Position numbers and translations under genes: made by a program
Part shown: positions 5,778-48,699 of the stretch, piece after piece
Position numbering within the stretch: position 1 is the stretch's first letter
How the letters are laid out: every line of letters begins with the position of its first letter
Notes under the pieces: model-generated
Database searches by the model: none
Seen by the model: only the letters and a program-made list of their open reading frames with translations
What the model was told of the DNA's origin: nothing
DNA from: an uncultured Rhodospirillaceae bacterium
GTDB lineage: Bacteria; Pseudomonadota; Alphaproteobacteria; Rhodospirillales; Magnetospirillaceae
NCBI GenBank assembly: GCA_903899885.1
Contig: CAIULK010000197.1
Location: 1-50,016 of the forward strand
DNA length: 50,016 nt
Reading direction: 5' to 3'

Positions 5778-7451
5778 ATGATGCGGATCGCGATAGCCCG
5801 GATTCTGCGGGTGCCGCAGGCGCGGGTGGTGGCGTTGCTGGTCTTCGTCAACCTGTTCGTTATCGCCTTGACCGCCGTGTCGCTGCACGCCAGCTACCGC
5901 CAGGTTCAGGAGCGGGCGGCCATCGCGTCACGCAACACCAACCGTTTGGTCGCGCAAGGCATCGCCGGGGAAATCGACCGCATCGACCTGGGGCTGCGGG
6001 CGGTGGCCGATGAATATGGCCGCATGCTTGCGTCGGGCGGCATCGACGAGGCGGGGCTGTCGCGGTTCGTTGTCCGTCAGCGCGAGCGTTTGCCGATGTT
6101 GGACAGTCTGCGCTGGACCGACGCGCAAGGCCGGATCGCGGAGTCCGGCGTTTCCGCCGCCGATCGCGACTATTTTATCCGCCCGCGGGACGACCCGGGG
6201 GCGGGACTTGTCATCTCCAAGCCGATCCTGGGGCGCATCAGCGGCAAGGAGGTGCTGGTCTTCGCCCGGCGTCTGGAGGCGCCTGTCGGGGGATTCGCCG
6301 GGATCGTCTATGCGGCGGTGACCATCGACTGGTTCGAACGCAAATTCGATGCGCTGGAGGTCGGGCCGCATGGCGCCGTCGTGTTGCGGGGCGACGCCAG
6401 CCGTGATTTCGATTTGCTGGCGCGTTTTCCCGCCGCCGGGTTTGTCGGCCAAACCAAGGTGTCGCGGCAATTCCGGGCCGCGATCAGCGCGGCGCCTTCG
6501 GGTGGAACCTATCAGGCCCATGCCGGGGCTGACGATATCTTGCGCACCTTCTCGTATCAGCCGGTCGGCGCGTATCCGTTGATCACCTTGGTCGGGCTGG
6601 CCAGCCAGGACTATCTGAACGATTGGCGGCCCGAGGCGGTCAAGATGACCATCCTGGCGGCGGTGTTTGCCGTGGTCACCAGCATCGGCGCGCTGAGGAT
6701 GCTGCGCGCGTGGCGGGCCTTGGAACAGCAAACCCAGGAATTGGCGCGCTCGAACGCCGATCTCGAACAATTCGCCTATGTCGCCTCGCACGATTTGCAA
6801 ACGCCGCTGCGCAACATCGCCAGTTACGCGCAGCTTCTGGGCAAACGCTATCGCGGCCGTTTGGACCGGGATGCCGACGAGTTCATTGGGTTCCTGGTCG
6901 ATGGCGCCAAGCAAATGGCGGAGATGATCGGCGATCTGCGCGACTACGCCCAGATCCCGACGACCCAGCGCGCGCCGGTCGCGGTCGATCTGGGCCGGAT
7001 CGTCGAAACGGTGCGGACCACGCTGGCCGAGCGGATCGAGGCGGCCGGGGCGACGATCGTGAGCGGTCCGTTGCCGGTGGTTTTGGCCGAAACGCCGCTG
7101 ATGGAAACCCTGTTCCAGAATCTGATTGAAAACGCGCTCACCTATCGCGATCCTGGCCGCCCCTTGCGCGTCGATATTACCGCCCGGCCGGCCGGGGAAG
7201 GATTTTGGCGGATTGCCGTGGCCGATAACGGCATCGGCATTGATCCGGCCTATCAAGAAAAGGTGTTCGTCATCTTTCAGCGCCTATCTCCCGCCCAATT
7301 CCCCGGCGGCACCGGTATCGGGCTGGCGTTGTGCCGCCGGATCGTCCACCGCTTTGGCGGCACCATCGGCCTGGACCCGGTGCCCGGCACCGGCACCGGC
7401 ACCGGCACGGTGGTCTTCTTCACGCTGCGGGGGAATGGTCAGCACGGGTGA
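5778..7451 (+). CDS. Membrane-bound sensor histidine kinase with periplasmic Cache domain
   Basis: This 557-residue kinase has an N-terminal membrane helix (about residues 14-36), a periplasmic double-Cache-like domain with the characteristic ADRDYFI segment, a second membrane helix near 290-310, and a short coiled linker. The H box VASHDLQTPLRN (candidate phospho-His338), an N box LIENALTYRDP and a G2 box GTGIGLALCRRI complete the kinase. The DLQTPLRN H box places it near the phytochrome-type HisKA group. ATG 5778 is preferred over the GTG at 5772 because GGAGGAG at 5766-5772 gives proper spacing only to the ATG. No response regulator adjoins it; the N-ATPase operon begins 45 bases downstream. 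The ligand is unknown. The tail encodes a GT repeat from a hexanucleotide array. Confidence 0.93.
   Translation: MMRIAIARILRVPQARVVALLVFVNLFVIALTAVSLHASYRQVQERAAIASRNTNRLVAQGIAGEIDRIDLGLRAVADEYGRMLASGGIDEAGLSRFVVRQRERLPMLDSLRWTDAQGRIAESGVSAADRDYFIRPRDDPGAGLVISKPILGRISGKEVLVFARRLEAPVGGFAGIVYAAVTIDWFERKFDALEVGPHGAVVLRGDASRDFDLLARFPAAGFVGQTKVSRQFRAAISAAPSGGTYQAHAGADDILRTFSYQPVGAYPLITLVGLASQDYLNDWRPEAVKMTILAAVFAVVTSIGALRMLRAWRALEQQTQELARSNADLEQFAYVASHDLQTPLRNIASYAQLLGKRYRGRLDRDADEFIGFLVDGAKQMAEMIGDLRDYAQIPTTQRAPVAVDLGRIVETVRTTLAERIEAAGATIVSGPLPVVLAETPLMETLFQNLIENALTYRDPGRPLRVDITARPAGEGFWRIAVADNGIGIDPAYQEKVFVIFQRLSPAQFPGGTGIGLALCRRIVHRFGGTIGLDPVPGTGTGTGTVVFFTLRGNGQHG
7385..7408 (+). repeat. Tandem hexanucleotide CGGCAC, 4 copies
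   Basis: Four perfect copies of CGGCAC lie near the 3' end of the histidine kinase gene and encode alternating Gly-Thr just after the G2 box. Copy-number change would stay in frame and alter only a loop before the last strand of the ATPase domain. Confidence 0.8.
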
Positions 7452-9297
<1,846 letters not shown>

Positions 9298-9298
<1 letters not shown>

Positions 9299-9564
9299 TG
9301 ACGAAACAACCCTTGTCCGACAAGATCGCCGCCCGCCAGCGCCAGCGCGACGAGGGGGTTGCCGAGGAACGCTCGTTCTTTCGTGGATTGGCGGTGGCGG
9401 GCGGATTGGGATGGATGATCGTGTTGCCGACCTTGGCCGGTTTGGCGCTGGGCCGCTGGCTGGACGGATTGTTCGCCAGCGGCATCACCTGGACGGGTGC
9501 CCTGTTGATGGCCGGGCTGGCGCTGGGTTGCCGGTGGGCGTGGTCGCGGATTCACCACCCATGA
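9298..9564 (+). CDS. atpQ: N-ATPase subunit AtpQ (AtpI-like membrane protein)
   Basis: This 88-residue protein has a charged N-terminal stretch rich in Arg, Lys and Glu, then two hydrophobic helices (about residues 33-58 and 62-82) joined by a short polar turn, as in AtpI relatives. In N-ATPase operons this position, after epsilon, is occupied by AtpQ, which is thought to help c-ring assembly or form an accessory membrane element together with AtpR. The ATG at 9298 overlaps the atpC TGA; a GTG three bases upstream is possible but less likely. The stop overlaps atpR as ATGA. Confidence 0.85.
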
Positions 9565-9791
9565 TCGCCGTCGGCGCTCTGGCCGGTTTGGCCTTGGGCC
9601 TCGCCTATTTCTGGGCGTTGAAGGCCAGTCTGAACGTGCGCCGGGTTTGGATGGCGGTTGCGGCGGCGGCGCGTTTCGCGGCGGCCGGGGCGGGGTTTTG
9701 GGCGCTGGCGCAAGCCGGGGCGCCGCCGTTGCTGGCGGGGCTGGCCGGATTCGTTGCCGGGCGCTGGCTGATGATGCGGTGGGCGACATGA
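9561..9791 (+). CDS. atpR: N-ATPase subunit AtpR
   Basis: This small 76-residue protein is almost entirely hydrophobic, with about three predicted membrane helices separated by arginine-containing turns (NVRRVWM and AAARFAA). AtpR is diagnostic of N-ATPase operons, and its partner AtpQ is encoded just upstream. Conserved arginines in the membrane are a family trait and have been proposed to interact with the c-subunit carboxylates; only the position and composition are directly visible here. It overlaps both neighbours by four bases (ATGA), so translation is likely coupled. Confidence 0.82.
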   Translation: MIAVGALAGLALGLAYFWALKASLNVRRVWMAVAAAARFAAAGAGFWALAQAGAPPLLAGLAGFVAGRWLMMRWAT

Positions 9792-10462
9792 TCGACGCCA
9801 ATCCGCTGTCGCCGCAGGTCCTGTTCCATCTTGGTCCCGTCGCGGTGGGCCGCGCGGTGGTCACCACCTGGGGATTGATGGCGGTGATGGCGCTGGGCTT
9901 CGGGCTTGCCACCCGCCGGTTGCGCGCCGATCCCGGCCGCGCGCAGGCGGTCCTGGAAGTGCTGGTCGAAACCCTGGCCACCCAGATCGAGGACACCATG
10001 CGGGTGCCCGCCGGCCCCTATCTGCCGCTGTTGGGCAGTTTGTTCTTGTTCATCCTCGCCGCCAATCTGTCGGCGGTGATTCCTGGGGTGCAGGCGCCGA
10101 CCGCCCATATCGAAACCACCGGAGCGTTGGCCTTGGTGGTGTTCGTCGCGGTTCACGGCTATGGCATCCGGGCGCGTGGGCTGACGCGCTATTTGCGGCA
10201 TTACCTTGAACCCAATCCGTTTCTGCTGCCTTTGACCCTTTTGTCCGAATTCACCCGCACCTTGGCCCTGATGGTCCGCCTGTTCGGCAATATCATGAGC
10301 CACGAGCTGGTGATCGCGGTGTTGTTGGGACTTTCCGGGCTGCTGGTGCCAGTGCCGATCATGGCGCTGGGCCTGCTGATCGGCGCCGTTCAGGCCTATA
10401 TCTTCGCCATTCTGGCGGCGGTGTTCATCGGGGCCGGGATCGGCGCGATCGAGACCGGCTGA
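9788..10462 (+). CDS. atpB: N-type ATPase subunit a
   Basis: The 224-residue membrane a subunit has five or six hydrophobic helices. The essential stator arginine is visible in TLALMVRLFGNIMSHELV, equivalent to the LRLFGN motif of other a subunits, and the last helix contains VQAYIFAILAAVFIGAGI. It forms the two half-channels through which ions reach the c-ring. The start overlaps the atpR stop (ATGA), and 19 bases separate its end from atpE. It is shorter than housekeeping a subunits at the N-terminus, as is usual for N-ATPases. Confidence 0.94.
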   Translation: MIDANPLSPQVLFHLGPVAVGRAVVTTWGLMAVMALGFGLATRRLRADPGRAQAVLEVLVETLATQIEDTMRVPAGPYLPLLGSLFLFILAANLSAVIPGVQAPTAHIETTGALALVVFVAVHGYGIRARGLTRYLRHYLEPNPFLLPLTLLSEFTRTLALMVRLFGNIMSHELVIAVLLGLSGLLVPVPIMALGLLIGAVQAYIFAILAAVFIGAGIGAIETG

Positions 10463-10481
10463 CATAAGGAGAACCATTATC

Positions 10482-10742
10482 ATGCCCAACGATCTGCTTT
10501 CCCTGGTCAGTATCCTCGGCGCCGTCATGGCGGTATCATTCGGGGCGATCGGTCCGGCCCTGGCCGAGGGCCGGGCGGTGGCCGCCGCGATGGACGCCAT
10601 CGCGCGCCAGCCCGACGCGGCGGGCACCGTGTCGCGCACGCTGTTCGTCGGCCTGGCGATGATCGAGACGATGGCGATCTACTGCCTGGTGATCGCGCTT
10701 CTGCTGCTCTATGCCAATCCGTTCGTCGTCCACGCGTCATGA
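10482..10742 (+). CDS. atpE: N-type ATPase c-ring subunit with two-carboxylate ion site
   Basis: The 86-residue hairpin has two membrane helices joined by the polar loop ARQPDAAG. In helix 1, Pro25 and Glu29 (IGPALAEGRA) align with the Pro and Gln of Na+-binding c subunits, so a Glu replaces that Gln. In helix 2, Glu62, Thr63 and Tyr67 (MIETMAIY) align with the Glu-Ser/Thr-Tyr ligands. This is the two-carboxylate pattern known from Fusobacterium. Na+ ligands are largely present, but ion specificity cannot be settled from sequence. It has its own strong AAGGAG ribosome site, the only clearly independent one in the operon interior, as expected for the most abundant subunit. Confidence 0.94.
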   Translation: MPNDLLSLVSILGAVMAVSFGAIGPALAEGRAVAAAMDAIARQPDAAGTVSRTLFVGLAMIETMAIYCLVIALLLLYANPFVVHAS

Positions 10743-11455
10743 GCCTGGATTGGTCGACGCTGGCGTTGCAGGCGGTCAATTTTCTGGTTTTGGTCTGGCT
10801 GCTGCAACGATTCCTGTACCGCCCGGTGCTGGCCGCGATCGATCGCCGCCGCGCCGAGACCTCGGCGTTGCAGACCCAGGCGGCGGATGCCCAAGCCAAG
10901 GCCGAGGCGGCCGAACGCGAATGGCATGACCGCCAGCGCGCCTTCGAGGCCGAAATCGCCGGATTGCGCCATGCCGCCGAGGCCGACGCCCAGCGCCGCG
11001 CCGACGCCGTGCTGGCCGAAGCGCACCTTCAAGCCGAGCGGATCCTCGCCGACGGCCGGGTTGCCCTGGCCGCCGAACGCCGCGCGGTTCGCGCCGATTT
11101 GGAACACCTCGCCGCCGCCCTATCAACGCGCTTGGCCGCCCGCCTGCTGGCGGTGGTGGCCCCCGGCGTCGGCGCGGCACCCTTTCTCAGCCTTCTGGAA
11201 CAAGGTTGGACCGCCTTGCCGGCCGATCAGCGGGCGTTGCTGGCCGGTGCCCGCCTGGAGGTGGCGCCGCCGCTCGGCGTGGCCGAACAGGAGCATTGGC
11301 GGCAAAGACTGGGCGCGGCCGACGTCGCCGAACGCCCCGATTTGATCGCCGGGGCCGCGTTGGTTGGCCGTTCGGCGGTGTTGCAGGTCAGCTGGGCCGA
11401 TGCGTTGGCGAAGGCGGAAGCCGGGATGGTGAGCGATGCCGACCTTGACGGATGA
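10739..11455 (+). CDS. atpF: N-type ATPase subunit b with delta-like C-terminal region
   Basis: This protein has 238 residues, long for a b subunit. An N-terminal membrane helix (about residues 8-27) is followed by a long Ala/Glu/Arg-rich coiled coil to about 130. Then comes a globular region ending in DLIAGAALVGRSAVLQVSWADAL, which resembles the C-terminal segment of delta subunits (PELIGGV...). The operon has no atpH, so the extension probably replaces delta as the link to the top of F1; this fits the known absence of a separate delta gene in N-ATPase operons. It overlaps atpE by four bases and atpA by twenty. Confidence 0.9.
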   Translation: MSLDWSTLALQAVNFLVLVWLLQRFLYRPVLAAIDRRRAETSALQTQAADAQAKAEAAEREWHDRQRAFEAEIAGLRHAAEADAQRRADAVLAEAHLQAERILADGRVALAAERRAVRADLEHLAAALSTRLAARLLAVVAPGVGAAPFLSLLEQGWTALPADQRALLAGARLEVAPPLGVAEQEHWRQRLGAADVAERPDLIAGAALVGRSAVLQVSWADALAKAEAGMVSDADLDG

Positions 11456-12944
11456 CGTGGCCCGCTGGGCCGAACGGGCAACGGATACCGCCGCCCAAGC
11501 GAGTGTCGATGCGGTCTCGCACGAATTGGGGCGTGTCGAGCGGATCGGCGACGGGGTGGCCACGGTGTCCGGCTTGGCGACCGCGCGCCAAGATGAAATG
11601 CTGCGCTTCGCCAATGGTGCGCTGGCCATGGCGGTGACGCTGGAACCGGGCCGGATCGGCGCGGTTTTGCTGTCGCCGTCCGATGGCATCGCCGCCGGGT
11701 CGGCGGTGGCGCGCACTGGCGACGTGGTCCGCGTGCCGGTCGGCGAGGCGTTGCTGGGCCGGGTGGTCGATCCCTTGGGCCGCCCGCTCGACGGCGGCCC
11801 CATGCCCAAGTGCCGCGCCAGCGAACCGGTCGAACGCCCCGCGCCCGCGATCGTCGATCGGGAAGCGATCGGCCAGCCCTTGGCCACCGGCATCACGGTA
11901 ATCGACGCGATGATCCCGATCGGGCGCGGCCAGCGCGAGCTGATTATCGGCGACCGCAAAACCGGCAAGACCGCCATCGCCGCCGATGCGGTGATCAACC
12001 AGAAGGACAGCGACGTCATCTGCGTGTGGGCGGCGATCGGTCAACGGACCTCGTCGGTCAATCATTTGATCGACACGGTGGGCCGCCTGGGTCCGAGGGA
12101 CCGCACGATCTTCGTGGTCGCCGAGGCCTCGGGGCCATCGGGTTTGGCGTGGCTGGCCCCTTACGCCGCCTGCACGATGGCCGAATATTTCTGCGAGCAG
12201 GGCCGCGACGTTCTGCTGGTGATCGACGATTTGACCCGCCACGCCGCCATCCACCGCGAGGTGTCGCTGCTGCTCCGCCGCCCGCCGGGGCGCGAGGCCT
12301 ATCCCGGCGATATTTTCTATGCCCATTCCCGCCTGCTGGAACGCGGCTGCCGCCGCGCCGACGTCTTGGGCGGCGGGTCCTTGACCATCTTGCCGATCGC
12401 CGAGACCCAGGGCGGCAACCTCACCGCCTATATTCCGACCAACCTGATTTCGATCACCGACGGCCAGATCATCCTGGACCCCAAATTGTTCAACGAGGGG
12501 CAAAAACCGGCGGTCAATGTCGGGTTGTCGGTTTCCCGCGTCGGCGGCAAGGCGCAGCCGCCGGTGCTGCGCCAACTGGCCGCCTCGCTGCGCCTGGATT
12601 ACGCGCAATTCCTGGAACTGGAGGTCTTCACCCGCTTCGGCGCGATGGCCGACGAGCGGACGCGACGCGCGGTCGAACACGGGCGGCGCATCCGTTCGCT
12701 GCTGATCCAGCGCAACACCGCCGTGCGCCGCCTGTCGGAGCAAGCCGCCGGTCTGCTGGCCCTGGGCGAGGGATTGCTCGACCCCTTGGAACCGGCGGCG
12801 GTGGATGCCTTCAAGAACGGCTTGGCCGACTGGCTGGAGGCCACCTGTTCCGACATCGCCCACCCGATCGACGAGACCGGCGCGCTGGGCGACGCCGGGC
12901 GTGCCGATCTTCTGGAACGCCTGAAGGGATTCGCCGGATCATGA
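11436..12944 (+). CDS. atpA: N-type ATPase subunit alpha
   Basis: The 502-residue noncatalytic alpha subunit carries the P-loop GDRKTGKT (about residues 172-179), the helicase-like EASGPSGLAWLAPY stretch, and LLVIDDLTRHA. It starts within the end of atpF (20-base overlap), and its TGA overlaps a second ATG at 12941 (ATGA). That ATG opens a 39-codon ORF and not atpG, unlike the other junctions in this operon. The lysine in place of the usual glutamine in GDRQTGKT is a small lineage variation. Confidence 0.96.
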   Translation: MPTLTDDVARWAERATDTAAQASVDAVSHELGRVERIGDGVATVSGLATARQDEMLRFANGALAMAVTLEPGRIGAVLLSPSDGIAAGSAVARTGDVVRVPVGEALLGRVVDPLGRPLDGGPMPKCRASEPVERPAPAIVDREAIGQPLATGITVIDAMIPIGRGQRELIIGDRKTGKTAIAADAVINQKDSDVICVWAAIGQRTSSVNHLIDTVGRLGPRDRTIFVVAEASGPSGLAWLAPYAACTMAEYFCEQGRDVLLVIDDLTRHAAIHREVSLLLRRPPGREAYPGDIFYAHSRLLERGCRRADVLGGGSLTILPIAETQGGNLTAYIPTNLISITDGQIILDPKLFNEGQKPAVNVGLSVSRVGGKAQPPVLRQLAASLRLDYAQFLELEVFTRFGAMADERTRRAVEHGRRIRSLLIQRNTAVRRLSEQAAGLLALGEGLLDPLEPAAVDAFKNGLADWLEATCSDIAHPIDETGALGDAGRADLLERLKGFAGS

Positions 12945-42169: not shown

Positions 42170-43318
42170 ATGAGTGACGGACCTTTTCACGCCTATCTCG
42201 CCAAGGTCGCGGCGGGGGATCTCGAACCCGACCCGATTCAGAAGCTGGCCGCGCATAAACTGCAAAGCCTGCACCTAGCCCTGGCCGGTTATCGCCCCTC
42301 GATGGGGGAGACCGGTTGGCTGGGCCGCTTCGGATTTGGCGCCAAGGCGGGCGCCGAACTGGCGTGGCGGCCGGGCGACGCGGTCGGCGACGAACGCCGC
42401 CAAGGTTTGTACATTTATGGCGGCGTCGGCTGCGGCAAATCGATGCTGATGGATATGTTCTTCGCCGACGCCCCGCTGCCCGCCAAGCGCCGCGTGCATT
42501 TCCATGCCTTCATGCGCGACATTCACAAAAGCATTCATGCGTGGCGAAGCGCCGCCCACCGCGCCAAGGCCGACCCGATCCCCCGTCTGGCCCGCGAGAT
42601 CGCCGAGGACGCCTGGCTGTTGTGCCTGGACGAGTTGGAGGTCAACGATATCGCCGACGCCCTGATTGTCGGGCGCCTGTTCGAGGCCTTGATGGAAGAC
42701 GGCGTGGTTGTGGTGGTCACCTCGAACCGGCCGCCCGGTGATTTGTATCAATACGGATTGCAGCGCGAGCGGTTCCTGCCCTTCATCGATTTGATCGAGC
42801 GCCGTTTGGATGTGCTGCATCTCGATGTCCGCCACGATTACCGCCGGGGCCGCGATCAAGGCTTGGCGGTTTACCACACGCCGCCCGGCCCGGCGGCCGA
42901 GGCCGCGCTGGACGCCGCCTTCGTCGCGCTGGCGGGCGATTCGGCGGTGGAGACGGCCCGCATCGAGGTGACCGGACACGAACTGGTGATCGGGCGGACC
43001 GCGCGCGGGGTGGCCCGTTGCCGCTTTACCGATTTGTGCGATGCGGCCTTGGGACCGGCCGACTATCTGGCGCTGGCCGAACGCTTTCATACGCTGATCC
43101 TGTCCGACATCCCGCGTCTGTCGCCCGACGACCGCAACCAGGCGCGCCGCTTCGTGACCTTGATCGACGCCTTGTACGAGGCGAAAACCCTGCTGATCTG
43201 TTCCGCCGCCGCCCCGCCCGACGGGTTGTTTCCGACAGGCGACGGCGCCTTCGAGTTCAAGCGGACCGCCTCGCGGCTGATGGAAATGCAAAGTTCGGAA
43301 TGGGGACGACACCCTTGA
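42170..43318 (+). CDS. zapE: Cell division protein ZapE, AFG1-like ATPase
   Basis: The 382-residue AAA-type ATPase has Walker A GGVGCGKSMLMD, the RVHFHAFM segment, Walker B LCLDELEVND with its following IADALIVGRLF, and SNRPPGDLYQYGLQRERFLPFI, all typical of ZapE/AFG1. In E. coli ZapE binds FtsZ late in division; mitochondrial AFG1 acts in protein quality control. ATG 42170 begins MSDGPFHAYLAKVAAG, the family start. It overlaps the downstream aminotransferase by 19 bases. Confidence 0.93.
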   Translation: MSDGPFHAYLAKVAAGDLEPDPIQKLAAHKLQSLHLALAGYRPSMGETGWLGRFGFGAKAGAELAWRPGDAVGDERRQGLYIYGGVGCGKSMLMDMFFADAPLPAKRRVHFHAFMRDIHKSIHAWRSAAHRAKADPIPRLAREIAEDAWLLCLDELEVNDIADALIVGRLFEALMEDGVVVVVTSNRPPGDLYQYGLQRERFLPFIDLIERRLDVLHLDVRHDYRRGRDQGLAVYHTPPGPAAEAALDAAFVALAGDSAVETARIEVTGHELVIGRTARGVARCRFTDLCDAALGPADYLALAERFHTLILSDIPRLSPDDRNQARRFVTLIDALYEAKTLLICSAAAPPDGLFPTGDGAFEFKRTASRLMEMQSSEWGRHP

Positions 43319-44493
43319 AAACCGGGAACGCGCTGCTGTCGTCGTTCGGCACGACGATTTTCGAAACCATGTCACGCCTTGCCGCCCAGCACGGCGCGGT
43401 CAATCTGGGCCAAGGCTTCCCCGAGGGCTTGGAGCCACCCGACGTGATCGAGCGGTTGGCCGAAACCGCCCGCACAGGCCCGCACCAATATCCGTCGATG
43501 ATGGGCACCCCGGCCTTGCGCGAGGCCGTCGCCCGCCACGAGCGGACCTATTGGGGCCTGCCGGTCGAGGCGAGCAGCCACGTGATGGTCACCTCGGGCG
43601 CCACCGAGGCGTTGGCCGCCTGTTTCCTCGGCCTGGTCGAGCCGGGTGACGAGGTGGTGGTGATCGAGCCCTTGTACGATTCCTATCTGCCGATCATCCG
43701 GCGCGCCGGGGGTATTCCCCGTATCGTGCGCCTGTCCCCACCGCACTGGACCCTGCCGCGCGCCGAGATGGAAGCCGCCTTTGGCCCGAAAACCAAGTTG
43801 CTGATGCTGAACAGCCCGACCAACCCGGCGGGCAAGGTTTATGGCCCCGACGACTTGGCCTTCCTGGCCGCTATGCTGGAACGCTGGGATGCGCTGGCGG
43901 TGTGCGACGAGGTGTATGAGCATCTGGTCTATGACGGCCAGCGCCATATTCCGCTGATGACCCTGCCCGGCATGGCCGAGCGGTGCGTGAAGATCGGCTC
44001 GGCCGGAAAAATATTTTCGCTGACCGGCTGGAAGGTGGGCTGGGTGGTCGCCGCGCCCGCGCTGCTGCACCCGGTGATCAAGGCGCACCAGTACCTGACC
44101 TTCACCACGCCGCCCGCGCTGCAAGATGCGGTGGCCTGGGGGCTGGACACCCAACGGGCGTATATCGAAGGCTTGGCGGGTGTGCTGGAAAAACGCCGCG
44201 ACCGCTTGGCCGAGGGGCTGAAAGCGGTGGGGTTCGAGGTGATGCCGACGGCGGGCAGCTATTTCCTCTCGGCCGATTTCCGGCCGCTGTGGGCGGGCGG
44301 CGACGATCAAGCCTTCTGCCGCCATCTCACGGAACAGGCCAAGGTCACCGCGATCCCGGTGAGCGCGTTTTATGGGGCGGACCCGCCGGGGCATCTGGCG
44401 CGGTTCTGCTTTGCCAAAACCGATGCGGCGATTGACATGGCGTTGGAGAGGCTTGGACGGTTTTTCGGGGGGCGCGGGGGAGGTCCGAGGTAG
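43300..44493 (+). CDS. Class I/II pyridoxal-phosphate aminotransferase
   Basis: The 397-residue fold-type I enzyme has NLGQGFPEG, QYPSMMGTPALREAVA, TSGATEAL, NSPTNPAGKV and VCDEVYEHLVY; the Schiff-base lysine lies in GSAGKIFSLTGWKVGW, and the late arginine in LARFCFAKT. It is nearest to the methionine/kynurenine aminotransferase group (YbdL-like), but the amino donor is uncertain. ATG 43300 overlaps zapE; a TTG at 43315 that overlaps the zapE stop (TTGA) is a possible alternative start. Confidence 0.9.
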   Translation: MGTTPLKTGNALLSSFGTTIFETMSRLAAQHGAVNLGQGFPEGLEPPDVIERLAETARTGPHQYPSMMGTPALREAVARHERTYWGLPVEASSHVMVTSGATEALAACFLGLVEPGDEVVVIEPLYDSYLPIIRRAGGIPRIVRLSPPHWTLPRAEMEAAFGPKTKLLMLNSPTNPAGKVYGPDDLAFLAAMLERWDALAVCDEVYEHLVYDGQRHIPLMTLPGMAERCVKIGSAGKIFSLTGWKVGWVVAAPALLHPVIKAHQYLTFTTPPALQDAVAWGLDTQRAYIEGLAGVLEKRRDRLAEGLKAVGFEVMPTAGSYFLSADFRPLWAGGDDQAFCRHLTEQAKVTAIPVSAFYGADPPGHLARFCFAKTDAAIDMALERLGRFFGGRGGGPR

Positions 44494-44539: not shown

Positions 44540-44908
44540 TTATCGGCTCACCTGGAATGAATAGCCGCCTTTAACCCTGGCGTCGTCTTCCGATCGCACC
44601 GACCATTGGACGGTGTAGGTCCCTGGGGGAAGAGGTGTCGGAAGAGTCACGATGATGGTGCGGGGATCGACGGGATCAGCGGTTATCCGCGTCGGGCCGA
44701 CCGGCATTCCCTCGCTCGTGCCGACATCGACAACAACCGCCCCTGCCTCGACCGGCTCCGAGAACGTCAGACGCAGTTGTTGGGGGGCGTCCGAAACGAT
44801 GGCGCCGACAGCGGGAATCGCGGCCTTGAGACGGGCATGAGCTTCGGCATGTCCGCTGATGGTGAGGCAAAGCAGAACGGCGGCGATGGTCAGGGAAATC
44901 GTTCGCAT
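44540..44908 (-). CDS. copC: CopC-domain periplasmic protein
   Basis: The 122-residue protein has a signal peptide cleaved probably after AEA (residue 23), exposing His24, the N-terminal copper(II) ligand of CopC proteins. The beta-barrel core shows LKAAIPAVGAIVSDAPQQLRLTFSEPVEAG and ends GTYTVQWSVRSEDDARVKGGYSF. The DGHPV-type segment that supplies a later His in classical CopC is DDARV here, so the second histidine is missing and metal affinity may be altered. It is the last gene of a three-gene minus-strand unit with an outer-membrane protein and a cupredoxin. Confidence 0.87.
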   Translation of the reverse strand: MRTISLTIAAVLLCLTISGHAEAHARLKAAIPAVGAIVSDAPQQLRLTFSEPVEAGAVVVDVGTSEGMPVGPTRITADPVDPRTIIVTLPTPLPPGTYTVQWSVRSEDDARVKGGYSFQVSR

Positions 44909-44921
44909 TTGGCGGGGGCCT

Positions 44922-45812
44922 TCAGAACAGGGGCTTGCCGAGGGTTTTTGGCATGAGATCACCGAGGAAGAAATGAATCTGACCGATGACTCCGACCGAC
45001 GTGTTGCTGGCGGATGTCGCCGGGATGACCGCTTCCAGCCCGACCTGATAGGTGTCGCCCGTGTAGACCAGACCGGGGGAAATGGTGCCCGTGCGGGCTC
45101 CGCCATTCCCCGTGACCGGGTTCTTCGTGGCGAATTCAACCACGGGGACGAGGTTTCCGACGAGTTCCGGCAAACCAAGATCCACCACCTGTTCTTGCAG
45201 GTAGGGAAGCGAGTATTGAAGCGATAGTCCCGTATTCAAAACGTTCGGCGCGGCATTCGTCTGGTCGGGCAATTGATAGCCGAGGGTGCCGGTAATGGCG
45301 AAAGGGCGGAAATAGCCGATGGGAAGATCGCCCAGCCCTTTCCCGAAATACAGGGTCGGTGTCGTCGAGCCGTACCTGTCGGCCCCGATCGCGGTCTTGC
45401 CCGTGCCGCCGATTTCACGCCCCACTCCGACGGAAGCGATAAATTCGTGGGGTTCGTTGACATAGACTTGGTATTTCAGGGTAAGGTTGACGTTCCGCCA
45501 GCCCTGCAAGCTCTTGTCGCCGATTTGGTCGAGGATGGTGTAGCCGTCACTGATCCCGATCCCGAGCCGCTCGGTGATTCGCTTGTCGAACTCGAAGTTA
45601 AGGTCGCTCTCTCGATTTGCCGGATTGTCGTCCGTGGCGCCGTTGCGAATCCGCATTACGGTTGGCAGCGAGGCTTCGTCCTCGACCGCCGGGTCGTCGA
45701 TCGTCAACGTCGCCGGAAACAGGCGAGCCCCCGCCTCCGCATGGGAATGTGCCGCTCTGGGGGGCACGAGACCGAGAACAGCCAAAATCGGAATAAAGAA
45801 CAGTCGTCTCAT
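44922..45812 (-). CDS. Putative outer-membrane beta-barrel protein of the metal module
   Basis: This 296-residue protein begins with a signal peptide (LFFIPILAVLGLVPPRAAHS) and a mature start rich in His and acidic residues. A pattern of alternating strands follows, with many Tyr, Gly and Asn (NVNLTLKYQVYV, TPTLYFGKGLGD, ITGTLGYQLP), fitting a porin-like barrel ending in aromatic Phe (GKPLF). It recalls the phenol MetA-type transporter group, but I cannot name it. Its place between copC and the cupredoxin suggests a part in copper or other metal traffic. ATG 45812 is chosen for the signal peptide. Confidence 0.65.
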   Translation of the reverse strand: MRRLFFIPILAVLGLVPPRAAHSHAEAGARLFPATLTIDDPAVEDEASLPTVMRIRNGATDDNPANRESDLNFEFDKRITERLGIGISDGYTILDQIGDKSLQGWRNVNLTLKYQVYVNEPHEFIASVGVGREIGGTGKTAIGADRYGSTTPTLYFGKGLGDLPIGYFRPFAITGTLGYQLPDQTNAAPNVLNTGLSLQYSLPYLQEQVVDLGLPELVGNLVPVVEFATKNPVTGNGGARTGTISPGLVYTGDTYQVGLEAVIPATSASNTSVGVIGQIHFFLGDLMPKTLGKPLF

Positions 45813-45864
45813 CTCGGCATCCTCGAATTGGCGGAGCAAGCCGCGGCCCAAGCACCGATGCCGT

Positions 45865-46347
45865 TTAGCGGACGGTGATGGTTCCCCTCATGCCGGCCTC
45901 GTAATGACCGGGGATATTGCAGGCGAATTCCAGGTGCATGGCCTTGCCGAAGGTCCAGGTCAGTTCCTTGGTTTCGCCGGCCTTGACGAACACGGCATTG
46001 GGATCGTCGCCCCCCATGCTGGCATGCATCGCCGCCATGTCGCCGCCCATCTTGGCCATTTCCGCCATCTCCGCGCGGTGATCAGCCTGGACCTTGGCGT
46101 CGCCCAAGGTGAAATCGTGATCAACGGAGCTGGTGTTGGTGACGACGAAACGGACCGTTTCCCCCGCCTTCACCGTGACGGAAGCGGGCTGAAAGCTCAG
46201 ATCGAGCATGGCTATCTTGACGATTCTGGCCGCTTTCCCGGAATCACTCGGCATCCCGAAGGAGAAGGCATGATCGTGGGCGTGCACAAGCGTGGTGCCG
46301 GAAAAGGCAATCGCGACGCCTAGAACCGCCATTTTTATCATTCGCAT
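45865..46347 (-). CDS. Cupredoxin with Met/His-rich insertion
   Basis: The 160-residue periplasmic protein has a signal peptide ending near residue 23, then a His-rich start (HAHDHAFSF). The type 1 copper ligands are His77 (VDHDF), Cys143, His148 and Met153 (CNIPGHYEAGM). Between strands, an insert at about 90-111 carries His90, Met94, Met97, Met100, Met104, Met107, His108 and Met111, a spacing that favours copper(I) binding. ATG 46347 gives the signal peptide; the open frame upstream is not supported. It leads the minus-strand arm, divergent from the sensor kinase. Confidence 0.88.
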   Translation of the reverse strand: MRMIKMAVLGVAIAFSGTTLVHAHDHAFSFGMPSDSGKAARIVKIAMLDLSFQPASVTVKAGETVRFVVTNTSSVDHDFTLGDAKVQADHRAEMAEMAKMGGDMAAMHASMGGDDPNAVFVKAGETKELTWTFGKAMHLEFACNIPGHYEAGMRGTITVR

Positions 46348-46412
46348 TTTCGTTCTCCGGCAGTGTTCGGCCATGGATAATGAACCGTCCTTTTCCAAAG
46401 CCATCTGCCGCC

Positions 46413-46456
46413 GATATACACCGGGGCTTGCCGCCAACCGTGTAAAGAATTGTAAA
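46413..46456. promoter_or_regulatory. TGTAAA direct repeat between the cupredoxin and sensor kinase genes
   Basis: TGTAAA at 46441-46446 and 46451-46456 repeats with a 10-base period, one helical turn, the arrangement bound by OmpR-family regulators such as the one encoded nearby. On the minus strand a TATATC -10-like box (46418-46413) lies about 22 bases downstream, leaving the repeat in the -35 region, as for an activated promoter. On the plus strand TTGCCG (46428) and the second TGTAAA are 17 bases apart. Confidence 0.5.
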
Positions 46457-46558
46457 TGGACGCAAGGCGCCGTTGCCAAACCGCTCTTGCCGCGAGCACA
46501 CCACGGCGTGCGCGCTTGCAGTGGGGTGTCGGTTCTTGGTCGAAAAGGATGTCGCGGC

Positions 46559-47932
46559 ATGAGGTCGTTTCTACCCGATTCCATCGCTTCCCGGACGATG
46601 CTGGTCCTTTTAGTGGGTTTGATATTGTCCCAAATCGTCAGCATCGCGATCCTCTCCCACGACCGCCTTGATGCACTGGCGAAGGCGAATGCACTGATGT
46701 GCGCCCGGAACATCGCGATGATCACCCACATCATCGACGGCACTCCCCCGGAAGCTCGTCCGGCTTTGGTGAGCGGGTTGGGGAGCTCCCTGATGGCCAT
46801 CACCTTGACGGATCATGCGGACATCCCCGTGGGCCATCAGGATGACGATCACTTTCCCCAGGTTCAGGCCGCCTTGGCCGACTACTTCCCCGATGCCGGG
46901 CATTCTCGGCTTCATGCGGCACACCGGGCGGCGAAAAATATCGCCACCGGCAATTTCTGGGTTCGCTTGCTGAATGGGTTCCCATCGGACCGTCTCATGG
47001 AGGCGTCGTTCCGGTTCGATGACGGCACCTGGGTGAATTATGAGATGGTCATGGCGGAGGCCGCGACCTTGTGGTCTCCACGGGTCGTCCTGTCCGCGCT
47101 GGGGATGGTGGTGGCTGTCGTGGTCTTTGGGATGACGGCGGCCCGGTGGGTCGGACGTCCGCTCTTGGTCTTTGCCGCCGCGGCGGACCGCTTGGGCCGT
47201 GACGTCAACGCGCCCCCACTCCCGGAGAGCGGCCCGCGGGAAGTGCGCCGGGCCATAGCCGCCTTCAACGAGATGCAGAGACGGATAAGGCGCTTTGTCG
47301 ATGACAGGACCCAATTGCTTGCCGCCATTTCCCACGACCTAAGAAGTCCGGTCACCCGCCTGCGGCTGCGGACCGAGATTCTGGCCGATGGTGTTGCGCG
47401 GGAAAAGATGCTCGGGGACCTGGGGGAAATGGAGGCCATGATCGCCTCAACCCTGGATTTTGCCCGCGGCGAAGCCGCCGACGAAAAAAATCAAACCATC
47501 GACCTCGCCGCGATGCTGTCCGTCGTTTGCGATAACGCCGTCGATATGGGGCTCGCGGTCTCGTACGACTGGGAGGGTCGGCAGGTTTGCGTGTGCCGAC
47601 CGTTCGCGCTCAAGCGGGCGCTGGTCAATTTGATCGAAAACGCGGCGCGATACGGGGGGAACGCCAGGGTTTCAACCGCCTATCGGAACCAGATAATTCA
47701 GGTCATCATTGATGACGATGGGCCGGGTATCCCGGACGCGGAAATCGAGAAGGTGTTCAACCCCTTCTATCGTATCGAAGGCTCGCGCAACCGAAGGAGT
47801 GGCGGGATTGGACTGGGGTTGACCGTTGCTCGCACCATTGTCCGGTCGCACGGCGGGGACATTCGTCTTTCCAACCGCGTCGGTGGTGGCTTGCGCGTTG
47901 AGGTCTCCCTTCCTCAGGAAGCTGACCGATGA
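46559..47932 (+). CDS. Membrane sensor histidine kinase of the metal module (His-rich sensor domain)
   Basis: This 457-residue kinase has membrane helices at about residues 13-33 and 175-193, and a HAMP domain to about 250. The H box AAISHDLRSPVTRLRLR carries His259, and the N box LVNLIENAARYGG and G box GGIGLGLTVARTIV follow. The periplasmic domain carries His86, His93, Asp95-97, His98, His115, His119 and His122 within about 40 residues, a likely metal site. The kinase core is EnvZ/CusS-like. ATG 46559 is chosen because the long open frame upstream lies inside the divergent promoter. It overlaps its response regulator by four bases. Confidence 0.92.
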   Translation: MRSFLPDSIASRTMLVLLVGLILSQIVSIAILSHDRLDALAKANALMCARNIAMITHIIDGTPPEARPALVSGLGSSLMAITLTDHADIPVGHQDDDHFPQVQAALADYFPDAGHSRLHAAHRAAKNIATGNFWVRLLNGFPSDRLMEASFRFDDGTWVNYEMVMAEAATLWSPRVVLSALGMVVAVVVFGMTAARWVGRPLLVFAAAADRLGRDVNAPPLPESGPREVRRAIAAFNEMQRRIRRFVDDRTQLLAAISHDLRSPVTRLRLRTEILADGVAREKMLGDLGEMEAMIASTLDFARGEAADEKNQTIDLAAMLSVVCDNAVDMGLAVSYDWEGRQVCVCRPFALKRALVNLIENAARYGGNARVSTAYRNQIIQVIIDDDGPGIPDAEIEKVFNPFYRIEGSRNRRSGGIGLGLTVARTIVRSHGGDIRLSNRVGGGLRVEVSLPQEADR

Positions 47933-48699
47933 TCGGCGATTCGGGGGACTGCCCGCACATCCTCATTGTCGATGACGACCCGGAGATTCGGACTCTTCTG
48001 GCGCGGTTTCTGACATCGGAGGGGCTTCGCGTCACCACGGTCAACGACGGCCCTGGCCTGCACAAGATCCTGGAAACGGAGATGGCGGACTTGGTGGTTC
48101 TCGACCTGATGTTGCCGGGTGAGGACGGGTTGTCGCTGTGCCGCCATCTGCGGGCCACCACGGCGCTTCCGGTCATCATGCTGACGGCCGCCGGCAGCGA
48201 GATGGACCGGGTAACGGGATTGGAAACGGGGGCGGATGATTATCTGTCAAAACCATTTGGCACGCGTGAATTGTTGGCGCGCATCCGAGCCGTCTTGCGC
48301 CGTGTCGGCCATCGGGGGGTGCCGACCGCGCCCGTGGCCGGCGCTGTGCCGTGCGAGGTTCTGGAATTCTTGGGATGGCGGCTGGAGACGGCACGCCGTC
48401 AATTGATGTCGCCGGACAATGTTTTGGTCGATCTCACCAGTGGCGAATACGATCTGTTGCTGGCTTTTCTATGCCATCCCCATCGAATTCTCAGCCGGGA
48501 TTCCCTGCTCGACCTGTCTCGGGGCCGCGTTGCTGGCCCCCACGACAGAACCATAGACGTTCAAGTCGGCCGGTTGCGGCGGAAATTGGAGGCCGATCCC
48601 AAGAATCCCGAGGTGATCCTAACCGTGCGTGGCGGTGGGTACCTGTTGACCTGCGATGTCGTTGTAAAGACGGGGGAACCCGCGTCAAAAATCAAATGA
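47929..48699 (+). CDS. OmpR-family response regulator
   Basis: The 256-residue regulator has a receiver domain with acidic cluster VDDDP, phospho-acceptor Asp59 in VVLDLMLPGEDG, Thr in LTAAGS and Lys in SKPFGTRELLARI. A winged-helix DNA-binding domain (about 150-245) follows with TSGEYDLLLAFLCHP and RTIDVQVGRLRRKLE ahead of VRGGGYLL. ATGA overlap with the kinase makes them a cognate pair. The likely targets are the divergent cupredoxin-OMP-copC genes through the TGTAAA repeat. The next 106 bases before gyrB contain nothing I can assign. Confidence 0.93.
   Translation: MIGDSGDCPHILIVDDDPEIRTLLARFLTSEGLRVTTVNDGPGLHKILETEMADLVVLDLMLPGEDGLSLCRHLRATTALPVIMLTAAGSEMDRVTGLETGADDYLSKPFGTRELLARIRAVLRRVGHRGVPTAPVAGAVPCEVLEFLGWRLETARRQLMSPDNVLVDLTSGEYDLLLAFLCHPHRILSRDSLLDLSRGRVAGPHDRTIDVQVGRLRRKLEADPKNPEVILTVRGGGYLLTCDVVVKTGEPASKIK

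Follow-up and report, generated by a model that had tools for sequence, protein, structure and literature searches.

A 50,016-nucleotide stretch of DNA from an uncultured Rhodospirillaceae bacterium (contig CAIULK010000197.1 of GenBank assembly GCA_903899885.1, positions 1 to 50,016; hereafter the window) carries three minus-strand envelope genes, encoding a CopC-domain protein, a predicted outer-membrane barrel and a cupredoxin, opposite a divergent kinase/regulator pair. This arrangement raises the question of whether the five genes form a metal-response system and what the barrel protein would do in it. The answer to which we give a somewhat better than even chance is that this is a copper-inducible periplasmic tolerance operon made of recombined known parts, in which a CopI-like cupredoxin, the barrel and CopC have come under a Cus-type switch. 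The parts are mostly known ones, newly arranged, with the addition of one notable undescribed family, that of the barrel. The features of the locus are as follows.

44540 to 44908, minus strand: copC-like gene, 122 amino acids (Pfam PF04234, 72.8 bits; alignment with solved CopC structures 6nfq/6nfr)
44922 to 45812, minus strand: predicted 12-stranded outer-membrane barrel of an undescribed family, 296 amino acids, predicted mature N-terminal His24 (AlphaFold2 model, fold matches, CopC neighbor)
45865 to 46347, minus strand: CopI-like cupredoxin, 160 amino acids (Pfam PF00127, 44.5 bits; NCBIfam CopI, 164 bits; alignment with relatives)
46348 to 46558: divergent intergenic region, 211 bases
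46415 to 46418, minus strand: TATA of the presumed copI -10 element, exactly 26 nucleotides from the operator
46441 to 46455, plus strand: presumed regulator operator, TGTAAAGAATTGTAA, a direct repeat with a 10-bp period (TGTAAA-N4-TGTAA)
46559 to 47932, plus strand: sensor histidine kinase, 457 amino acids, EnvZ-like by sequence and Cus-type by context (Pfam HAMP, HisKA, HATPase_c)
47929 to 48699, plus strand: OmpR-family response regulator, 256 amino acids (Pfam Response_reg, Trans_reg_C)

The Pfam matches of CopC, the cupredoxin, the kinase and the regulator all exceed the curated cut-offs, and together with the coordinates they bear out the preliminary description of the locus, made from the letters of the DNA, as five divergent genes sharing one 211-base intergenic region.

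The kinase/regulator pair is a Cus-like switch by context

The best NCBIfam model of the kinase is EnvZ (221.7 bits, below its cut-off of 415) and that of the regulator is OmpR (254.3 bits, below 331), and the heavy-metal models TIGR01386 and TIGR01387 reach 113.7 of 292.55 and 133.2 of 279.2 bits. Membership in the CusS/CusR sequence subfamily was rejected on these scores, since both heavy-metal cut-offs are missed and the EnvZ and OmpR models score higher; an osmoregulatory EnvZ/OmpR pair was rejected as well, given the missed equivalog cut-offs and the pump context found in relatives. The genome, an assembly of 3.4 Mb in 269 contigs, also holds two OmpR-like paralogues.

Orthologues of the switch were found in 14 genomes (55-63% identity for the kinase and 59-69% for the regulator), and at 13 of these 14 loci a permease of the heavy-metal resistance-nodulation-division (RND) type lies on the divergent side. 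Because its orthologues are divergent to heavy-metal RND pump operons, the switch is Cus-like by context; the CusS/CusR-type pair of the preliminary description is to be amended accordingly. The operon facing the switch in the loci examined closely encodes YtkA-like and TolC-like proteins, a CusB-like adaptor and a CusA/CzcA-family permease. One such permease, checked in detail, scored 1022 bits with Escherichia coli CusA and 467 with ZneA, and it keeps the methionines of the LLYMP, APxEM and RIDML motifs, which we take to be the Cu/Ag ligands of CusA. The window resembles the E. coli CusRS-CusCFBA system in having a two-component switch divergent from copper genes, and its orthologues face a CusA-like pump operon; it differs in that its kinase and regulator group by sequence with EnvZ/OmpR and in that the switch stands opposite copI-barrel-copC, with no efflux pump at the locus.

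The presumed operator is conserved with the switch. The repeat occurs upstream of 16 related kinases, at the same place and in the same orientation, and a TATA exactly 26 nucleotides from it on the side of the divergent operon is present in 13 of these 16 relatives and in the window. The number of matches expected in the window, at up to one mismatch, is 0.02, and the genome has a single exact copy of the 15-mer. Relative to copI, the box would sit near the -35 region, a usual place for an OmpR-type activator. Promoter and terminator scans gave nothing above chance.

Some switch orthologues depart from the common arrangement. The only one that lacks a nearby RND pump (L183, positions 6676-9134) has its operator facing two genes; judged by eye, one encodes a His-rich protein resembling a cupredoxin or oxidase subunit II, the other a membrane protein resembling a subunit of haem-copper oxidases. 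Opposite some other switches (L184, positions 6717-12267) stands a CusA/CzcA-family pump of a second class, with an adaptor of another kind and a permease frame whose C-terminal extension weakly matches cytochrome c. In one relative (L181, positions 6959-7987) a transposase-like frame, also recognized by eye, lies between the switch and the pump operon, which might be one means by which such operons are re-paired.

The barrel represents an undescribed family linked to CopC

The AlphaFold2 model of the barrel protein, a confident one, has 12 long strands and a predicted local distance difference test (pLDDT) score of 87.6. Its closest solved folds are FapF (5o65, Z 22.2) and the COG4313 channel Pput2725 (4rl8, Z 21.3), matched over 222-223 residues at 9-13% identity. 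Pfam, NCBIfam and PDB sequence searches with the window barrel returned no match, and eight members of its family gave zero Pfam matches at E values up to 1. The view of this protein as an outer-membrane protein with no assigned function therefore agrees with the 12-stranded model and the lack of a family match, and on the model the protein is a credible candidate for an outer-membrane channel. The barrel shares its 12 strands with Pput2725 and FapF but has no Pfam match, and it lies among copper genes rather than in a context of catabolism or amyloid secretion. Sequence membership in COG4313 or FapF was rejected because the fold agrees but none of the eight members matches Pfam, and identity with CopB/PcoB was rejected for want of a Pfam match and because PcoB (7pge) ranks low, with Z 12.4.

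Across the family a nearly invariant histidine directly follows the signal-peptidase motif (81 of 86 loci by pattern and four more by eye), and the predicted mature N-terminus is histidine in the barrel and in CopC alike. Segment 24-46 of the barrel is more conserved than the remainder (0.74 versus 0.57), and by analogy with COG4313 channels this N-terminal segment would plug the lumen (PMC4493636).

One genome collection yielded 218 confirmed loci of the family, mostly in Alpha- and Betaproteobacteria, and viral contigs yielded no relatives. The 86 loci examined here (85 relatives and the window) are the closest matches and hence not a random sample; the barrel is followed by CopC in 80 of them, and CopD is present in 65. 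Seven plasmids carry the barrel annotated as 'hypothetical protein' or left unannotated; in the four that were looked at, it directly precedes CopC in every case and CopD comes next in three. We found no paper on the family in the open-licence literature.

In 59 of the 80 loci with enough upstream sequence, the barrel is preceded by a frame with a CXXC motif and a terminal R(A/G)PP, which is the signature of CruR, a copper-sensing upstream open reading frame (uORF) that shuts off a copper-import operon under excess copper (PMC9426467). These CruR/DUF2946-like frames, going by their motifs, likely constitute a large set of copper-sensing uORFs. A narrower DUF2946 search over L012-L091 recognizes 19 loci and misses most of the CXXC...R(A/G)PP frames. 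The window differs from the CruR (DUF2946) operons that many of its barrel relatives resemble (PMC9426467): CopD and the uORF are both absent from its locus, and CopI occupies the uORF position. CopD has two weak matches elsewhere in the genome, on other contigs.

The family can also be set beside the TonB-dependent copper transporters OprC and CrtA (PMC12914433), which it resembles in its candidate role of passing copper through the outer membrane and in lying beside copper-sensing uORFs. OprC and CrtA depend on TonB, have barrels of 22 strands and contain a plug domain, whereas the window barrel has 12 predicted strands and a short N-terminal segment only.

The cupredoxin is CopI-like and the CopC site is altered

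All four type 1 ligands that had been assigned to the cupredoxin are present, as H77, C143, H148 and M153, and a His/Met-rich insert at about positions 90-111 contributes H90, M94, M97, M100, M104, M107, H108 and M111. By these ligands and this insert the protein is CopI-like. CopI is a periplasmic copper-tolerance cupredoxin that carries such an insert, and the window protein shares both features with CopI of Rubrivivax gelatinosus, Vibrio cholerae and Pseudomonas aeruginosa (PMC13308877). It differs from these proteins in sharing an operon with a barrel and CopC and in scoring below the curated CopI cut-offs: CopI is its best NCBIfam match, yet the scores are 164.1 of 280 and 90.6 of 200 bits. 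Homologues of the cupredoxin occur in 68 of 297 genomes of the same order, and both the barrel and CopC are absent from all 20 neighborhoods of CopI homologues examined. In three genomes of another family (L134, L141 and L190), an OmpR-type regulator and a kinase directly precede a CopI-like cupredoxin without the TGTAAA box; this type of regulator has apparently become linked to CopI independently there.

The CopC domain scores 72.8 bits against a Pfam cut-off of 23.3, and the protein reaches 84.8 of the 95 bits set for the NCBIfam CopC equivalog. It has in common with the CopC of CopC-CopD copper-handling pairs the fold, the predicted mature N-terminal histidine (His24) and the Cu(II)-site aspartate; it differs in that alignment with the solved CopC structures 6nfq/6nfr places alanine (SEDDARV) at the second Cu(II) histidine, and in that the locus lacks CopD. 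The complete site of N-terminal histidine, aspartate and second histidine is therefore not found in the window CopC, and since the second histidine is replaced by alanine its Cu(II) site is probably weak. The protein had been described as a CopC-domain protein, which holds for the domain, if with one usual Cu(II) ligand missing. A relative's CopC, aligned likewise, has both the aspartate and the second histidine, and D-x-A is unique to the window, with D-x-H in the other barrel-linked CopC proteins whose C-terminus is readable (about 75; of 78 CopC sequences, three were unreadable or misframed). No further CopC was found in the genome.

The five-gene set is a local arrangement

Recurrence of the five genes as neighbors in relatives had been put forward as a check on the preliminary description, and this check fails: the set was seen in none of them, and its sub-modules recur strongly. 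We rejected the set as a recurring system because it is absent from the other barrel loci among the 86, the 20 CopI loci and the 16 kinase loci; as it was seen nowhere else, the arrangement is a local one. What is conserved, unlike the five-gene set, are two pairs within the locus, barrel with CopC and switch with operator.

Base composition sets the locus apart to some degree. G+C content has its window minimum, 0.598, at 45-47 kb, and G+C at third codon positions (GC3) is 0.67-0.77 across the five genes and 0.78-0.85 for most flanking genes looked at, with a few other window reading frames, taken unchecked, also at 0.62-0.67. A codon style less GC-biased than that of the flanks, as first described, is thus supported, allowing for these few frames. 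The suggestion that the locus was acquired keeps the lower GC in its favor, but many genomes of the family to which the bacterium belongs hold orthologues of the kinase, regulator and operator. An insertion between an aminotransferase gene and gyrB was not accepted as proving acquisition. None of 12 relatives has gyrB or any other of the flanking genes next to the aminotransferase, and a reference state for an insertion is thus lacking. The aminotransferase gene (window positions 43315-44493) also adjoins the barrel operon in Telmatospirillum siberiense (L222, and L012), in the opposite relative orientation, and is not beside the barrel operon in other relatives.

The locus had also been called self-contained, with no CopA ATPase or Cus pump adjoining. 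None adjoins it; 'self-contained' is doubtful because two Cu-ATPases and one heavy-metal RND permease score above cut-off on other contigs of the genome. This permease has 32% identity to the pump linked with the switch in relatives.

A proposed mechanism and its alternatives

In the tolerance operon that we propose, the kinase would sense excess periplasmic Cu(I)/Ag(I), and the phosphorylated regulator would bind the TGTAAA-N4-TGTAA box and activate copI-barrel-copC from the divergent promoter. CopI would then capture periplasmic Cu(I) and perhaps oxidize it, the 12-stranded barrel would provide a passage for copper across the outer membrane, and the altered CopC would be a weak carrier or a relic. 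The locus would have arisen by re-pairing, in which a Cus-type switch of the bacterial family kept its operator and came to face copI-barrel-copC instead of an RND pump operon. Copper as the signal, activation by the regulator, and copper as the cargo of the barrel and the direction of its flow are what we infer here. A shift from acquiring copper to tolerating it is consistent with the lack of both uORF and CopD and with the altered CopC. The uORF-barrel-CopC-CopD operons of relatives may import copper; import is unproven because CutF, a related uORF, acts in the opposite sense (PMC9973294).

Several points weigh against this proposal. The sensor domain of the kinase has no Met-rich loop, and its conserved residues are a few histidines and aspartates. 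The window CopC has lost one Cu(II) ligand, and a passive barrel would give export no evident driving force. The box may have no role beyond autoregulation of the kinase operon, and selection on the five genes as a unit is unproven because the set recurs nowhere.

Four other explanations were considered. It is unlikely, though not implausible, that a copper acquisition operon has been retained, with Cu(II) or a copper chelate entering through the barrel, CopC and CopI supplying cuproenzymes and the two-component system repressing or tuning expression. The barrel-CopC-CopD order of most relatives and the frequent CruR-like frame ahead of it, CruR being a shut-off of copper import in excess copper (PMC9426467), would suit such an operon; the window, however, lacks CopD and the uORF and has gained a tolerance-type cupredoxin, its switch faces efflux pumps in relatives, and the opposite action of CutF (PMC9973294) again counts against it. 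Those same absences, together with the missing second Cu(II) histidine in the only CopC of the genome, could instead mark a decaying remnant, with the barrel and CopC as nonfunctional leftovers of a barrel-CopC-CopD operon and only CopI and the two-component system of any consequence. We regard this as rather improbable, for the barrel frame is intact, is 51-57% identical to its nearest relatives, keeps the conserved motifs and sits in the middle of a tight operon.

The two remaining explanations concern the cargo and the signal. A general channel for organic or amphipathic molecules, linked to copper through a copper-binding organic ligand or envelope repair, would accord with the nearest folds, FapF and the COG4313 channel, members of COG4313 being implicated in the uptake of hydrophobic molecules (PMC4493636). 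We strongly doubt it, as the CopC partner is nearly fixed, the copper-sensing uORF frequent and the predicted N-terminal histidine conserved, and no catabolic or chelator-biosynthesis gene was recognized beside the barrel among neighbors that are incompletely annotated. Least probable of all is a switch that responds not to copper but to a different metal or to general envelope stress: its EnvZ/OmpR sequence group and a sensor with conserved histidines but no Met-rich loop would allow this, yet the Met motifs of the one RND pump studied closely mark it as a Cu/Ag pump, and the switch's own presumed targets in the window are CopI-like and CopC-like.

Implications for copper passage across the outer membrane

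Little is known of how copper crosses the outer membrane. According to a 2026 paper, few copper-specific outer-membrane transporters have been identified, all of the TonB-dependent superfamily, besides passive diffusion through porins (PMC12914433). As a direct candidate for another such route we offer a conserved 12-stranded family without a Pfam entry, which is nearly always accompanied by CopC and mostly by CopD and a copper-sensing uORF as well, and which opens the question to experiment. The barrel may act as a copper gate, to judge from its gene context and its predicted N-terminal histidine. More tentatively, it is possible that the barrel founds a class of dedicated, TonB-independent outer-membrane copper channels in which a CopC-like N-terminal histidine on the lumen plug selects or gates copper, and that the family has moved between two settings, uptake operons repressed by copper (uORF-barrel-CopC-CopD) and, in the window, a tolerance operon induced by it. 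The window itself would be a natural case of regulatory re-pairing, in which the switch and its operator are unchanged and the target genes are different.

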